Assembly (NCBI GenBank): GCA_030835085.1
Contig: JAUQWQ010000030.1
Location: 1-41,530 of the forward strand
Origin: Ignavibacteria bacterium
GTDB taxonomy: Bacteria; Bacteroidota; Ignavibacteria; Tepidaquicellales; OLB5
Direction: 5' to 3'
DNA: 41,530 bases
The translations under genes were made by a program, and so were the position numbers. Under the pieces are notes generated by a model that was not told where the DNA came from, made no database searches, and saw only the letters and a list, made by a program, of their open reading frames with translations. Of the stretch, positions 22,305-31,274 are shown in pieces; position 1 is the stretch's first letter; each line of letters begins with the position of its first letter.

Positions 22305-23156
22305 TTAATGTTTCCTGTAGTAATATTCCTTTTCCATTACACCAAGATAATAATTAATCCCGATCCCGATAGATCCCCAGGCAAACTGCCTGTATCCTGA
22401 AAATCTCTCGCGGTTATCCACTTTCTGATCATTCAGATTTATCTCCCCGGGTACATCAGATATTTTGCTTTGTTTAAGCCATACATTAGCATGAGTGAAT
22501 TTAAGCCCGAAACTGAGTCCTACATTTTTATTGATCAGGTATTCAAAACCTGAATATATATTAAGCCCTACCCTGAATGCGGGATTTATACTGTATTCAG
22601 TAGCAGTTACGTTTTCGGTAATTTTTGCATTCCCTGAAATTACACTGCCGATAAAACCAATTCCTGCATAAGCACGTAATTTCAGCCCCGGGTTAAAATT
22701 ATCTTCAATTCCAAAACCAAGTGAATAAACATTATAATTTACAAAATCGTATTCTACATCATCAGAAAACACTTTGTTGAATTTACTTGTGAACCTGTTG
22801 TACATCAATGATGAAGTGACTCTCAGGTTCCCGGCTTTGTGAAGCGGATATTTGGCAATTAAGTTCAAACCGAATCCGTGTCTTACTCCGAAATTTTTAC
22901 CGTAAATGAACTGTTCCGCATTAAGATCTCCGTTATCATTGGCAGATAGCTCATAAATTCCGTAATCATAATCAACGGCAAACTGAACTGTCAATACCGG
23001 AGCATTACGGATAGTTAACTTTAGGTATTCATGTCCGCTGCTTATCGATGAATCTGTAATGATTTTAAAATCCCGCAAATTTGCAGGCTGGGATAGTGGA
23101 TGGAGGTTCGCCAGAATAAACATCAAAAGGGTTAATGATCTTTTCAATAGGATCAT
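22305..23156 (-). CDS. Predicted outer-membrane beta-barrel protein
   Basis: 283 residues. The N-terminal MILLKRSLTLLMFILANLHPLSQ is a Sec signal peptide. The mature part alternates short polar and aromatic strands, such as GVRHGFGLNLIAKYPL, LRAYAGIGFIGSVISG, FRVGLNIYSGFEYLI and FAWGSIGIGINYYLG, a barrel pattern. The end (YYYRKH) lacks the terminal Phe common in outer-membrane proteins. Not similar enough by eye to the barrels at 2035 or 19802 to call a paralogue. Unlinked to other genes; function unknown. The 276 bases upstream (23157-23432) are AT-rich and hold no gene. Confidence 0.68.
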   Translation of the reverse strand: MILLKRSLTLLMFILANLHPLSQPANLRDFKIITDSSISSGHEYLKLTIRNAPVLTVQFAVDYDYGIYELSANDNGDLNAEQFIYGKNFGVRHGFGLNLIAKYPLHKAGNLRVTSSLMYNRFTSKFNKVFSDDVEYDFVNYNVYSLGFGIEDNFNPGLKLRAYAGIGFIGSVISGNAKITENVTATEYSINPAFRVGLNIYSGFEYLINKNVGLSFGLKFTHANVWLKQSKISDVPGEINLNDQKVDNRERFSGYRQFAWGSIGIGINYYLGVMEKEYYYRKH

Positions 23157-23432: not shown

Positions 23433-23966
23433 ATGAATATGATGACCTCAAAATTTTTACTTTCTTTCTGCCTGATGGTAATTTCTTTTAATTCACTTCT
23501 TGCATACAACACTTCCGGAAACGGTTCCCGGTATTTCTCATCTGCAATTGATTTACAAAGAAATGAAAGTGACCCGGGAAGTACGGATGGACATTGCACC
23601 TGCACATGCGATGCATGCAGGAACTGCAGTCACGGGAATCCTGATAAAGAAACTTATTATGAAGAATATAATTTCAGGGTTATGAGCAGCCGGGATTTCG
23701 CGGATTTCAAAAAACTGATAGCTGACAGGACTTTTGAAACTACTAAATTTGATATGACAAAAAGTGTGATAGATAATAATCTTTTTACAACCGACCAGGT
23801 TAGGGAAATCTTAAGCTGGTTTGTGTTTGAATCAAATAAAATTGAACTTGCAAAATACACATTCAAAAATACTGTTGACAGGAACAATTATTACAAACTG
23901 TATGATATTTTTGTATTTGAATCAAACGTTGTTGAGCTTGATAATTATATAAAGAATTATAGATAG
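23433..23966 (+). CDS. Secreted DUF4476 protein with an N-terminal cysteine cluster
   Basis: 177 residues. A signal peptide (about 1-24, ending SLLAYN) is followed by a short linker, then HCTCTCDACRNCSH at 54-67 with five Cys in eleven residues between two His. The C-terminal region (about 80-177) matches the DUF4476 pattern: FKKLIADRTFETTKFDMTKSVI, TTDQVREILSWFVFESNKIELAKY, NYYKLYDIFVFESNVVEL, with the repeated F-V-F-E-S-N helix signature. DUF4476 is common in Bacteroidota secreted proteins without known function. The Cys cluster could bind a metal or form disulfides; this is inference. Confidence 0.78.
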   Translation: MNMMTSKFLLSFCLMVISFNSLLAYNTSGNGSRYFSSAIDLQRNESDPGSTDGHCTCTCDACRNCSHGNPDKETYYEEYNFRVMSSRDFADFKKLIADRTFETTKFDMTKSVIDNNLFTTDQVREILSWFVFESNKIELAKYTFKNTVDRNNYYKLYDIFVFESNVVELDNYIKNYR

Positions 23967-23985: not shown

Positions 23986-24019
23986 AAATGCCGGTCATAT
24001 TAAACTTTTACCGGCATTT
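23986..24019. terminator. Intrinsic terminator between convergent genes
   Basis: AAATGCCGGT (23986-23995) and ACCGGCATTT (24010-24019), 14-base loop. On the minus strand the stem is followed by five T, so it would end the AAA+ operon; on the plus strand it follows the DUF4476 gene. Confidence 0.75.
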
Positions 24020-24091: not shown

Positions 24092-24508
24092 TCATTTCTG
24101 CATTTTTTTTGCCATTATCATCATTAATCCGTTCCATGAAAATGATACTCCATCAGCAACAGGATAGATAATATCGTTATCTTCTGCATCGATCTTCACA
24201 TTAATTTCCATTCCGGCCTGTACTTTTGGTGCGCCCATTGGATACACCTCCCAAATAGATTTTGCTGTATAAGAAGATTTATACGGACTCGATACTTCCA
24301 TTGTGAACTCATAAGCCTGGTACTGCCCGCCCTGTCCGGTTCCGGATAAACCTGCCGGTTCTGAGCTGACTATTTTAGCAGTTCCGTTTTCTGCCTTTGC
24401 CAGCCTTGCGGTTCTTTCTGCTTTCATCTTCTCACCGCCTTTAACCCCCCAAAAATAGAAACCAACAATTATTCCAACTACGCCAAGAATTATAATTATT
24501 TCAATCAT
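24092..24508 (-). CDS. Single-span membrane protein of unknown family (paralogue A)
   Basis: 138 residues. One N-terminal span (MIEIIIILGVVGIIVGFYFW) is followed at once by a basic stretch (KGGEKMKAERTARLAKAE), so the soluble part should face the cytoplasm. The soluble part is a small all-beta domain with GGQYQAYEFTMEVSSPY, IWEVYPMGAPKVQAGME and INVKIDAEDNDIIYP. It is clearly homologous to the gene just upstream (same span, same motifs). It is last in a three-gene operon with the double AAA+ ATPase, seven bases after its paralogue. Domain resembles the small beta-barrels seen in DUF3592-like membrane proteins, but no firm family is claimed. Confidence 0.78.
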   Translation of the reverse strand: MIEIIIILGVVGIIVGFYFWGVKGGEKMKAERTARLAKAENGTAKIVSSEPAGLSGTGQGGQYQAYEFTMEVSSPYKSSYTAKSIWEVYPMGAPKVQAGMEINVKIDAEDNDIIYPVADGVSFSWNGLMMIMAKKMQK

Positions 24509-24515
24509 AACACAA

Positions 24516-24953
24516 TTATTTAATTAACGGATTTTCGGCAGAAACTTTATTTTTCTTCTTATTCATCACCAGGTAATTCCAGCTCAATGCAAGTCCCTGG
24601 TCCATAGGATAAATTATCTGGTCATCTTCGGCATCAATTTTTACATTCACTTCCATCCCCTCCTGAACCTTCGGTGCACCCATTGGATAGACTTCCCACA
24701 CACATTTAGCGCGGTATGGTTCTTTATATGAATTAGAAACTTCAAGTGTGAATTCATATCCCTGGTATTGTCCCCCGCTTCCGGTTCCCCTTATACCTGC
24801 AGCATGCGCTCCTATGATAACAGCCTTACCTTTTTCAGCCCTGGCAATTCTTGCATCCCTTTCGGCAAGCATCTTGGCTCCGCTTTTTGAAGCATATATA
24901 AAGAACCCTATGATGGCTGCAAATACCCCGATAACTATTAGTACTTCTATCAT
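24516..24953 (-). CDS. Single-span membrane protein of unknown family (paralogue B)
   Basis: 145 residues with the layout of its neighbour: span at 1-20 (MIEVLIVIGVFAAIIGFFIY), basic helix (KMLAERDARIARAEKGKA), and a beta domain with GGQYQGYEFTLEVSNSY, VWEVYPMGAPKVQEGME, VNVKIDAEDDQIIYP and a final LSWNYLVM. About half the positions are identical to paralogue A by eye, with near identity in the VYPMGAPKVQ-GME core. It differs by a longer Lys-rich tail. It lies 18 bases after the AAA+ gene, so the three are probably one transcript. A membrane anchor or substrate for the ATPase is an attractive but untested role. Confidence 0.78.
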   Translation of the reverse strand: MIEVLIVIGVFAAIIGFFIYASKSGAKMLAERDARIARAEKGKAVIIGAHAAGIRGTGSGGQYQGYEFTLEVSNSYKEPYRAKCVWEVYPMGAPKVQEGMEVNVKIDAEDDQIIYPMDQGLALSWNYLVMNKKKNKVSAENPLIK

Positions 24954-24971
24954 ATCTTTAAATATTAATTT

Positions 24972-27584
24972 CTAAAATCCCATTCTTTTTTCTTCGTGGA
25001 TTTCTGTTGCCAGTTCCTGTACATCTTCAAGTTTAACTGTTCTGATCATTTCTGCGGTACGCTTATCCTTTGGCATTTCCGCTAACCTTAAATTCTGGTT
25101 CTTCACCGCTTCGCCAAGTGATTTCCTTATCTCGCGCGCATTCCCGAAAAATTTATCCCGTGAGCTGTGCAGTGAATGTATATGTTTTTTGAAATACTCC
25201 GATGCATCAGTGTCAAATTCAAGCTCCTGAGAGGTTAATATGACTTTTGCAATAGCAAACAATTCATCCGGCGAATAATCAGGGAAATTAAATTTCCTGT
25301 CGAAGCGTGATTTTAAACCCGGGTTCATTTTCAGGAAATTCTCCATTTCACCGGTATAACCGGCGCAGATAACAACAAACTCCCCGCGGTTATCTTCCAT
25401 TCGTTTAAGAATTATCTCAATTGCCTCTTTCCCGAAATCGTTATCACTTGAACCCATCAGTGAATACGCCTCATCAATGAAAAGCACACCACCCATTGCT
25501 GCATCTATTTTCTCTGCTGTCTTGATCGCTGTTTGCCCTATATATCCCGCAACAAGCTCTTCCCTGTCCACTTCAACCAAATGACCCCGTTCAAGAACTC
25601 CCAAAGCCCTGAATATCCTCGCCATGATCCGGGCAACTGTTGTTTTGCCCGTTCCCGGGTTTCCTGTAAATACTGAATGGAGTGAAAATGAGCGGGTTAC
25701 ATCTTTACCGATTTCCCTGTAATACCTGACAAGCTTAACCATTTCATGAACTTCACTTTTTAATTCCTGCAGTCCAACAAGTTTGTTAAGCTCTCCCAAA
25801 GAGTCACGCATCAGCTCTTCATCAGGAGGTATATCAACACTCTTATGCTGTTTCTTCCGGAATATCTCCTTGATATCATCCACTGTAACCACTGAAATTG
25901 CTTTTTCATCCAACGACTCCAGGCTGGTGTTTCCGCCCATTATACGCAGGCCAAGGTTCATTTTACCCTCATCCACAATTGAATTCACATACCTGGCATT
26001 ACCGAAAGTTCTGTCCCTATCCCTGTATGCCTCTACAAGCTTGGTATATAGAAATTCCTCAGCGTCTTTATCAAGATCAACATCAATTTGTTCCGCGTGG
26101 TAGTTACCTATTTGCAGCAGCTCAGTGGGTGAGTAATCCGGGAAATGGAAATTTCGGTTAAACCTTGATTTCAGACCGGGGTTAGATTCAATAAAATATT
26201 CCATCTCATCAGGATACCCTGCAACTATCACTGCAAGGTCACCGGGACCATCGCTCAATTCTTTAATAAGGATCTCTATAACTTCCTTCCCGTAATCTTT
26301 TTCAGTATCACCTTTTCTGGCAAGTGCATAGGCTTCATCAATAAAAAGAATTCCGCCTCTTGCTTTCTTTATGGCATCCTTAACCTTTGGACCTGTTTGC
26401 CCGATAAATTCACCTATCAGGTCCGCACGGTCAACCTCATGAACATGACCCTTGCTTAAAATTCCGAGATTTTTGTAGATCTTCCCAAGCATCAATGCAA
26501 CTTTTGTTTTCCCGGTGCCCGGGTTACCCGTAAAAACCGCATGAAGGTTTATTTTTTCGGAATCATCAAATCCTTTTTCTTTCCTCAGTTTTACAAATTT
26601 CAGGTAATCATACAGATCATTTATATCTTCTTTGATAGTAGCAAGGCCTATCATTTCATTGATCTCTTTCATTATTTCCGCTTCGGTCAGCTCTTTTGCC
26701 TGTTCCTGCTTTCCGTCTGTTCCTAATAGCGGTATGCTCTGTCCGGGCAGGTAAAATTTCCCTGCATCAGGATCTGTTTCTTCTTCTGCAGCAAATTTAA
26801 CGTATACTGTACCAAGCAACTGTTCAAGTAATACTACTTCTATAATATATTCACCGTCATACCAGCTTCCGGCTTCCCTGCTGCCCCAGCCCCTTGCAAA
26901 ACGGATAAGTTTCATGTTATTGTTATAGGTATAATAGTCCCTTATTTCAGCAATATTATCACCCACTTTACTTCTTATTCTGATAAAGAACTCACCCTGC
27001 CATGCTGCTTTTCCGAATTGCAGATTTTCACCTTCAATCTCTATCCACATGTATCTTGCTTTTACTGCATTAAAAACTTTAAGGTAATTTCTCTGTCCGT
27101 ACGGAGTATCTTCAAACGGTCCTTCATATAATTTAATTGAGCTCAAACTGAAATACGGATTACTTTCCTGCGTTACTTCACCTTCATCCAGCATATGAAA
27201 ATTTGCGGTTCCAAGCAATACGCCGTCAGCCCAGGCTTCCCAACGGTATGAACCCTTTGTCCAGTAAACGCCGGGATCTGCCTTACCCCATGAATACCTG
27301 ATGTACGCTGTATCTTCTGAGCGTATGATTGTCTGCGTAACCGGTTTATCGCAAAGTGAATAATTATTCACATCAAATGCTTTGAAGTTAACAGTTATCT
27401 GCCAGTCTGATTCATCAAATTTGAGATTGTTCAATGCAAGCTCAACATAAATGTATTTTATTGATTTTACGTTAAATACCTGGCGGTATTTTTTCTGAGA
27501 ACCGTAAAGCCATTCATTGCTTCCGTGTACCTTTAATGATTTGAATTTGTAATTTTTAGCGGGAATAGTGTTATTCTGTACCAT
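24972..27584 (-). CDS. Double CbbX/SpoVK-type AAA+ ATPase with duplicated all-beta N-terminal domain
   Basis: 870 residues, no signal peptide. Residues 12-265 consist of two copies of an all-beta domain: copy 1 has [25 protein letters not shown] and [10 protein letters not shown]; copy 2 has [26 protein letters not shown] and [10 protein letters not shown]. Two AAA+ modules of the CbbX/SpoVK clade follow. Walker A GNPGTGKT is at 353-360 and 641-648. Walker B is within [10 protein letters not shown] (412-421) and [10 protein letters not shown] (700-709). SRFNR and SRFDR (473-477, 759-763) are likely arginine fingers. Both ATPase sites look intact. The clade includes the Rubisco remodeller CbbX and EccA, so protein remodelling is the likely activity; the substrate is unknown. 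No Rubisco or secretion genes are nearby. It leads an operon with two paralogous membrane proteins. Confidence 0.9.
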
Positions 27585-27650
27585 ATTTTACAATCATAAA
27601 CTTATGTTATTTTAATTTCAATGTAAAACAAAAATTGAAATAAAATAAAA

Positions 27651-27672
27651 AAGGCGCTTAATTAAGCGCCTT
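27651..27672 (-). terminator. Intrinsic terminator after the M61 peptidase gene
   Basis: Perfect palindrome AAGGCGCTTAATTAAGCGCCTT followed on the minus strand by a T-rich run (27650 downward). It separates the peptidase gene from the AAA+ operon. The short space between 27585 and 27650 should hold the AAA+ promoter; only a weak TAAGTTTA -7-like match is seen. Confidence 0.85.
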
Positions 27673-27693
27673 TGGAGCTGATATTCAAAAATT

Positions 27694-29666: not shown

Positions 29667-30653
29667 TCATAAAAACAGGCTGAGAGCATAATAACACAAT
29701 GCACCAACCAGACCAGACAGAGGAATTGTAAGTACCCATGCCCAAACAATTTTCCCGGCAACTCCCCATTTAACTGCAGAAAGTCTTTTAACGCTCCCTA
29801 CCCCTAAAATCGAACCTGTGATAGTTTGTGTAGTGCTTACAGGTATACCGAACATAGCAGTCATAAGAAGTGTTGTTGCCCCTGAAAACTCTGCACAGAA
29901 TCCGCCAATTGGCTTCAGTTTGGTTATTTTCATTCCCATTGTTTTTACTATTCGCCAGCCGCCGAACATTGTACCAAGTCCGATGGCAAGATGACATGAC
30001 ATTACCACCCAAACCGGTACATAAAATTCATCCTGGAATTTTGCAGCAACAAGTACTGAAACAATAATTCCCATGGTCTTTTGCGCATCATTGGAGCCGT
30101 GCCCGAAACTGTAAAAAGCCGCAGATACAAGCTGCAGTTTTCTGAAAACGCTGTCAACTGCCCTGGGCTTTTTATTTTTAACTATCCAGCTTGTTACAAG
30201 CATGTTAATCAGTCCAAGTATAAAGCCCATTACCGGAGCAAGGAAAATGAACAATACAACTTTTTCAAATCCGACCCATATAATTACATCCCAACCGAGC
30301 TTTGCAATTGCTGCACCTCCGTATCCGCCAATTAATGCATGAGAAGAACTGACAGGTATCCCGTAATACCATGTGAAGATATTCCAGAATATAGCTCCAA
30401 GCAGCCCTGCAAGTATAATATAAATATCAACATTATCCAGCTTTACAAGTCCGCTGCCAACTGTTTTGGCTACAGCTTCGCCAAATGCAAATGCTGCAGC
30501 AAAATTAAAAAAAGCTGCGAACATAACAGCTTTTTGCGGAGACAGCACTCCGGTAGATACTATTGTGGCAATTGAATTCGCCGAATCATGAAAACCGTTC
30601 AAAAAATCAAACACTAAAGCAATGATTATTACAACCAGTACCAGTTCAAACAT
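29667..30653 (-). CDS. pit: PiT-family inorganic phosphate transporter
   Basis: Low-affinity, ion-coupled phosphate permease in the inner membrane. In 328 residues about nine or ten spans and both inverted family signatures are visible: GFHDSANSIATIV near the N-terminus and GHGSNDAQKTMGI in the second half, along with GIPVSSSHALIGG and GIPVSTTQTITGS. It lies three bases after the DUF47 gene, the classic pairing. Located next to the Pst operon and under a PHO-box-like repeat. Confidence 0.95.
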   Translation of the reverse strand: MFELVLVVIIIALVFDFLNGFHDSANSIATIVSTGVLSPQKAVMFAAFFNFAAAFAFGEAVAKTVGSGLVKLDNVDIYIILAGLLGAIFWNIFTWYYGIPVSSSHALIGGYGGAAIAKLGWDVIIWVGFEKVVLFIFLAPVMGFILGLINMLVTSWIVKNKKPRAVDSVFRKLQLVSAAFYSFGHGSNDAQKTMGIIVSVLVAAKFQDEFYVPVWVVMSCHLAIGLGTMFGGWRIVKTMGMKITKLKPIGGFCAEFSGATTLLMTAMFGIPVSTTQTITGSILGVGSVKRLSAVKWGVAGKIVWAWVLTIPLSGLVGALCYYALSLFL

Positions 30654-30656
30654 ACC

Positions 30657-31274
30657 TTACATATTCTTAATTAATATTCCTTCTATTACAGTTGCGGCAT
30701 TCTGGCATTTATCTACTGCCCGCTCAATTATCTCGAGTATTTCTTTTTTCTTTATGAGCTCAACGATATCCTTTTCATTTTCAAACAGGTCAAGAAGTGC
30801 ATCTTTAAAAACAATATCGCCTTCAGTTTCCAGTGTTTTAACCTGTACAATTTTATCAGGCGTCATCTTCGGGTTCTGCAGATTTTTTACCACATCGAAG
30901 AGAACATCAGTCTGTATTAAAAGAATATCTGTCATTTGCGGACCGAACTGTAAAGGGGTTTTGAGTTTATACATATTCAGTCTTGATGCGATGGTATCAA
31001 TTGTATCCACAATATCATCCAGTGAATTCACAAGCGAGAAAATATCTTCCCGGTCTATCGGGGTTATGAATGTATCGTTCAGGTCACTGATTACCTGGTG
31101 AGTCAGATCATCGCACCTGTTTTCTATGAAATGAATTTTGCTTGAATAATCAGAAAAGTTCTCATGTTTATCCATCATTTCATCAAGCATCTTTGCCGCA
31201 TCCAGAACAGACTCAGCCAGCTCGATAAGAATATCAAAAAATTTATTTTGTTTAGGCAAGAATCTTTTAAACAT
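30657..31274 (-). CDS. DUF47/PhoU-like regulator of phosphate transport
   Basis: 205-residue all-helical PhoU-like protein. FITPIDREDIFSLVNSLDDIVDTID is the DUF47 signature, including the acidic E/D-x-x-x-D metal-binding helix. DUF47 proteins generally accompany PiT transporters and are thought to modulate them. It is the first gene of the two-gene operon with pit, and a set of TTAACA-like repeats sits 65 bases upstream. Confidence 0.92.
   Translation of the reverse strand: MFKRFLPKQNKFFDILIELAESVLDAAKMLDEMMDKHENFSDYSSKIHFIENRCDDLTHQVISDLNDTFITPIDREDIFSLVNSLDDIVDTIDTIASRLNMYKLKTPLQFGPQMTDILLIQTDVLFDVVKNLQNPKMTPDKIVQVKTLETEGDIVFKDALLDLFENEKDIVELIKKKEILEIIERAVDKCQNAATVIEGILIKNM

Follow-up and report, generated by a model that had tools for sequence, protein, structure and literature searches.

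Introduction

ClpX docks on ClpP by an Ile-Gly-Phe loop (PMC7112951), and the (L/I/V)-G-(F/L) motif of Clp ATPases binds hydrophobic pockets of ClpP (PMC8745299, PMC7112951). In E. coli, even the I268L substitution in ClpX weakens ClpP binding, and Arg192 of ClpP contacts the IGF loop (PMC7112951). For the CbbX/SpoVK/EccA clade of AAA+ ATPases, published analysis found no peptidase association, and its known members remodel their targets without degrading them (PMC10659427). Among other classical-AAA ATPases, actinobacterial Cpa and archaeal Cdc48, both of the Cdc48 type, were reported to interact with the proteasome (PMC6017811).

We analyzed a 41,530-bp stretch of DNA from an Ignavibacteria bacterium (contig JAUQWQ010000030.1), hereafter the window, which encodes a double-ring ATPase of the CbbX/SpoVK/EccA clade. 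The ATPase resembles the clade in its Walker A and B motifs, GY sensor 1, NPGxxSR Arg finger, sensor-2 Arg, AAA_lid_6 and variable N-domain, but differs from it in having two rings, a putative ClpP-type docking peptide at the C-terminus and a double beta-sandwich N-domain, which is not listed for the clade (PMC10659427). It resembles ClpX and the other Hsp100 partners of ClpP in its threading pore loops and in carrying the docking tripeptide found in ClpX of the same genomes; however, its AAA cores belong with the classical AAA of the CbbX clade rather than with Hsp100/Clp, and its peptide is a C-terminal tail, whereas that of ClpX is an internal loop. Like Cpa and Cdc48, it would be a classical-AAA ATPase linked to a compartmental peptidase, the link to ClpP being a proposed one, but the peptidase, the N-domain and the AAA subfamily are all different. 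The most informative feature of the ATPase is this ClpP-type C-terminal motif, which had escaped the initial annotation.

Organization of the locus

The ATPase gene (24972-27584, minus strand, 870 aa) is followed directly on its 3' side by the gene for small membrane protein A (24516-24953, minus strand, 145 aa) and then by that for small membrane protein B (24092-24508, minus strand, 138 aa), the tandem paralogue of A. The intergenic gaps are 18 and 7 bp, and this spacing suggests that the three genes are co-transcribed. An intrinsic terminator of 10 pairs (27650-27673, minus strand, z -3.7) closes the upstream M61 peptidase gene and thus sets it apart from the ATPase gene. On the other side, a terminator-like hairpin followed by a T run (23986-24019; z -3.65 on the minus strand and -4.24 on the plus strand) lies between the gene for small protein B and a convergent gene (23433-23966, plus strand). 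The tight minus-strand trio and the flanking terminators described in the initial annotation were thus recovered, and its statement that no Rubisco, type VII secretion (T7SS) or sporulation partner lies nearby held for the neighbourhood; no T7SS component was found among the scanned window genes around the ATPase. Promoter-like hexamers in the 109-bp gap 5' of the ATPase gene (27593-27621, minus strand) are consensus matches only; such sites were no more numerous than in shuffled sequence, and the consensus used differs from Bacteroidota promoters.

The convergent gene encodes a DUF4476 protein. A pair of genes for a Pit-type phosphate transporter (PHO4) and a PhoU_div/DUF47 protein (29667-31274) lies 5' of the M61 peptidase gene, and its position beside the ATPase locus is kept across the genus. 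An outer-membrane beta-barrel-like protein with weak similarity to PorT/SprT is encoded at 22305-23156; a link to type IX secretion (T9SS) through this neighbour was rejected, as the PorT/SprT match reached only E 0.006, far under the cut-off.

Domain structure and clade assignment of the ATPase

The N-terminal domain (aa 1-286; 26727-27584, minus strand) consists of two all-beta sandwich repeats and was predicted by AlphaFold2 to be almost entirely strands (mean pLDDT 89.6). It matched no Pfam family, and a Foldseek search against the PDB found nothing beyond generic proteins with tandem beta-sandwiches (TM 0.2-0.3). This domain is the predicted substrate- or adaptor-binding part of the protein. 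It is followed by two AAA+ rings. D1 (aa 292-575; 25860-26711, minus strand) has Walker A at residues 353-360, the pore loop FIG at 393-395, the Walker B DE at 416-417, NPGLKSR at 468-474 and the sensor-2 GNAR at 528-531. The corresponding motifs of D2 (aa 598-855; 25020-25793, minus strand) are at residues 641-648 (Walker A), 681-683 (pore loop YIG), 704-705 (Walker B DE), 754-760 (NPGLKSR) and 814-817 (sensor-2 GNAR). In all 63 homologues compared, the Walker A K/T, the Walker B D/E, the Arg finger and the sensor-2 Arg were invariant in both rings, and GY sensor 1, NPGxxSR and GNAR/GNGR were likewise present in both, with G814A as the single exception. The pore loop was Y/F-I-G in D1 and mostly Y/F-V/I-G in D2. 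Because the catalytic and pore-loop residues are kept in both rings, D1 and D2 should both be active threading rings.

The two CbbX-type AAA+ rings read from the DNA in the initial annotation were confirmed as two AAA domains with AAA_lid_6, and the scores with the SpoVK, CbbX and EccA models were far over chance. Each ring has the GY sensor 1, the Asn before the Arg finger and the sensor-2 Arg that define the clade. None of the three named families accommodates the protein. The SpoVK equivalog TIGR02881 applies to a single domain above 422.95 bits, and each domain scored approximately 270-275 bits; the whole-protein score of 534 bits passes only as the sum of two sub-threshold domains. Because of this summation, automatic annotation can label Bacteroidota members of the family as stage V sporulation protein K. 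The CbbX score (TIGR02880) was 454.2 bits summed over two domains, below the cut-off of 459.25, and the EccA score was 420.9 against 466.65, the N-domain being all-beta and not TPR. Assignment to Hsp100/Clp was also excluded, as the protein matched Pfam PF00004 and AAA_lid_6 and its ClpA/ClpC-type matches were weak. Two further candidates were rejected. The match to the anti-phage ATPase IetA in a PADLOC search for defence systems gave 50 bits against models of 330-395 aa and reflected the generic shared AAA domain. A plasmid-borne origin was discarded, as no plasmid match spanned 80% of the ATPase; the partial matches were Streptomyces beta-helix-CbbX and Bacillota AAA proteins.

A conserved Gly-Phe motif at the C-terminus

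A C-terminal linker and putative docking motif follow D2 (24975-25019, minus strand), with residues 868-870 (24975-24983) forming M-G-F at the free carboxyl end. A terminus of the form [I/M/L/F]-G-F was present in 63/63 complete members of the family and in all 14 non-redundant ones (clusters below 70% identity). The first residue of the motif was I in 48 members, M in 9, L in 3 and F in 3. All were counted as peptides of the (L/I/V)-G-(F/L) type, 51 with I or L in the first position and 12 with M or F, and the tail of the window ATPase falls among the 12. The motif was followed by 0-9 residues and stood exactly at the free C-terminus in 11 members. Across the 14 clusters, the approximately 12 residues before it were near random, and entropy was zero at the G and the F. 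A conserved G-F after a variable linker is the pattern expected of a short linear docking motif.

Of 39 other CbbX-type proteins used as controls, 36 from the same class and three plasmid-encoded ones from other phyla, none had a G-F tail; these controls included TPR triple-ring, single-ring, Virgibacillus double-ring and Streptomyces double-ring types. Among approximately 730 unrelated neighbour proteins, at most 5 had such a tail.

Comparison of the tail with ClpX of the same genomes

ClpX loops were taken from 31 ATPase-carrying genomes, and 30 were paired with ATPase tails; the remaining loop was IGYK. The tripeptide was identical between ClpX and the ATPase of the same genome in 21 of the 30 pairs, and ClpX had G-F at positions 2-3 in 29. 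In Bacteroidia, the ClpX loop was TQAIGFK or TQSIGFK and the ATPase tail RSIGFK, KRSIGFK or KPSIGFK; in one locus (L121), for example, TQSIGFKN in ClpX accompanied KPSIGFKL in the ATPase. One lineage had IGFR in both proteins (L088; AQTIGFRN and PGKIGFRV). In genome G041, the loop was SSMGFG and the tail KPKMGFTA. The Ignavibacteria-like order had IGFG or MGFG in ClpX and MGF, LGF or FGF in the ATPase, so that a native MGF ClpX exists in the order of the window; in the genus of the window, the tail is MGF and the ClpX loop IGF. Agreement with ClpX at the fourth residue was above that after shuffling (permutation p 0.009), a value confounded by shared ancestry. Furthermore, ClpP was present in 33 of the 34 genomes searched, the exception being a MAG of many contigs, and ClpP of the window species has an Arg near its C-terminus (EKRIIDKK) that corresponds to E. 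coli Arg192 in a by-eye alignment.

Small membrane proteins

Small proteins A and B are 59% identical and arose by a recent tandem duplication. Both have a single hydrophobic segment (hydropathy of the best 19 residues 2.8 and 2.6) and, after it, a basic stretch with 6 K/R against 3 D/E, which should place the soluble part in the cytoplasm. These results agree with the earlier description of paralogous single-span proteins facing the cytoplasm. Protein A comprises an N-terminal membrane segment and long helix (residues 2-38), a beta domain (40-123) and a C-terminal helix (125-140). The fold had no significant match in the PDB, and the match to Pfam DUF3592 was not significant (E 0.16).

A small gene stood directly 3' of the ATPase gene in all 12 ATPase-carrying members of the genus, and a second copy was present in three genomes (G000, G005 and G006) and in part in G011. 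Beside the ATPase outside the genus, the small protein was absent: six genomes of the same order and approximately 50 Bacteroidia loci had the ATPase without it. The neighbourhood search thus upheld the pairing proposed in the initial annotation within the genus and not for the ATPase family beyond it. Distant paralogues of the small proteins adjoin unrelated genes, some of them in genomes that lack the ATPase. One such paralogue, elsewhere in the genome of the window, lies beside a 1247-aa protein with Pyr_redox_2 and Fer4_20 matches (L184:2048-6393), and two relatives have the same arrangement (L185 and L186).

The ATPase gene of seven Bacteroidia loci was followed, at a distance of -1 to +14 bp, by that of an unrelated 3-TM protein of 114-126 aa. 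Since this protein takes the place of the small protein, recruitment of a small membrane partner appears to have happened more than once. The 3-TM protein was rejected as a dedicated partner of the ATPase, as it occurs also in ATPase-free genomes beside J-domain genes; it is possibly a membrane partner of chaperones in general. In another family, its homologues lay directly beside a J-domain (DnaJ/CbpA-like) gene in genomes where the ATPase was not found (L270-L275). From gene order and topology, the small proteins are probably membrane anchors or adaptors, a reading weaker than that of ClpP docking, and this plausible role would not be essential to the ATPase family.

Proposed mechanism and alternatives

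We propose, with moderate confidence, that this ATPase of the CbbX/SpoVK/EccA clade unfolds substrates by threading them through its two rings and passes them to ClpP, which its tail would bind. This is the simplest reading, in which the protein would combine two established elements, the C-terminal tail docking of classical AAA ATPases and the docking peptide of ClpX. The ATPase would form stacked hexamers, the N-domain would bind a client or an adaptor, and the client would be threaded through D1 and then D2. Like the docking tails of proteasomal ATPases, the C-terminal tails may emerge on the distal side of D2, and their tripeptide may enter the hydrophobic pockets of ClpP in the manner of the ClpX IGF loops. 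In the genus of the window, the most likely role of the small single-span proteins, whose beta domain would lie on the cytoplasmic side, is to hold the machine or its clients at the inner membrane; elsewhere in Bacteroidota, another small membrane protein would take this part, or none would. In favour of the ClpP reading, a tail-less relative has a third AAA ring in the place of the tail. Against it, the tail of the genus has M and not I, no clpP gene was seen in the ATPase neighbourhoods examined, and the motif of 11 members stands at the free C-terminus, unlike the internal loop of ClpX. The fuller proposal, of an unrecognised class of ATP-dependent ClpP protease in which a CbbX-clade double-ring unfoldase has a flexible ClpX-type tail instead of a third ring and is held at the membrane in some lineages by small proteins encoded with it, has in our judgement slightly better than an even chance of being correct.

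The tail could instead dock another partner common to the family. The C-terminal tail of p97 binds adaptor domains, and the ATPase may be a dedicated chaperone or remodeller without proteolytic function, as CbbX is for Rubisco and SpoVK for MurG. Such a role would fit the diverse neighbourhoods, which gave no hint of degradation, and the characterised members of the clade, which are all narrow chaperones (PMC10659427). We consider it rather unlikely, however, since the peptide is that of ClpX in the same genomes, often to the fourth residue, and since no other conserved partner gene stands beside the ATPase across the family. A machine for extraction or assembly of membrane proteins, with the small proteins as clients or obligate anchors, is improbable: the constant position of the small gene in the genus, the 3-TM protein at the same place in Bacteroidia and the J-domain chaperone genes beside its homologues speak for it, but such a gene is missing from most ATPase loci, and both small families occur also without the ATPase. 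More improbable still is a purely structural tail, folded back on D2 or on the N-domain of its own hexamer without a partner. Some AAA+ proteins are known to cap themselves with their C-terminus, and the tail comes directly after D2; however, relatives without the tail keep the same AAA core, and a linker and end distance that vary around an unvarying G and F point to a short linear docking motif and not to a packed element.

If docking on ClpP is confirmed, it would be informative because it conflicts with the statement that the clade has no peptidase association (PMC10659427): the CbbX/SpoVK/EccA clade, so far linked only to non-destructive remodelling, would have a degrading branch, and ClpP in Bacteroidota would gain a further kind of unfoldase partner outside Clp/Hsp100. 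A search of the open PMC literature, with subscription papers outside its scope, returned no description of the ATPase family or of a ClpP partner from the CbbX clade.

Distribution and relatives of the ATPase

The ATPase was present in 12 of the 13 genomes of the genus, the 13th being 64% complete, in six further genomes of the order and in one more of the class sample. When the genomes of 84,980 species were scanned with the N-domain, 67 loci were recovered, almost all in Bacteroidota and mostly from uncultured organisms. The ATPase is thus a Bacteroidota family, mostly without adjoining small proteins. No shared functional theme was found in the wider ATPase neighbourhoods, which varied by lineage and included genes for M61 peptidase, Pit/PhoU, two-component, PurF-like, UbiA-like and PKS-like proteins.

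Relatives of the N-domain were found in proteins of approximately 1300 aa with TPR and triple AAA domains and in proteins of approximately 278 aa. A maximum likelihood tree built from individual AAA domains placed D1 of the family as sister to that of the triple-AAA family (97/96), and the D2 domains of both families fell together on one side of a 99/99 branch. In the triple CbbX proteins (L171-L178), one related beta domain precedes D1; they differ from the ATPase family in their TPR N-terminus, in a third AAA ring where the family has its tail, and in the absence of the G-F motif. This architecture of TPR, single beta domain and triple CbbX is common in the class (L171-L178, L190), and none of its matches reaches the SpoVK cut-off with a single domain. 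The double beta-sandwich of the N-domain also occurs alone in other genera of the class, in proteins of 275-306 aa that have no AAA domain and begin with a hydrophobic, signal-peptide-like stretch (L160-L164). In genome G021, a split CbbX-like copy (265 and 137 aa; L070:10617-11827) lies directly 5' of the intact ATPase gene; its downstream piece also ends near a G-F motif, and the copy is probably a decaying duplicate.
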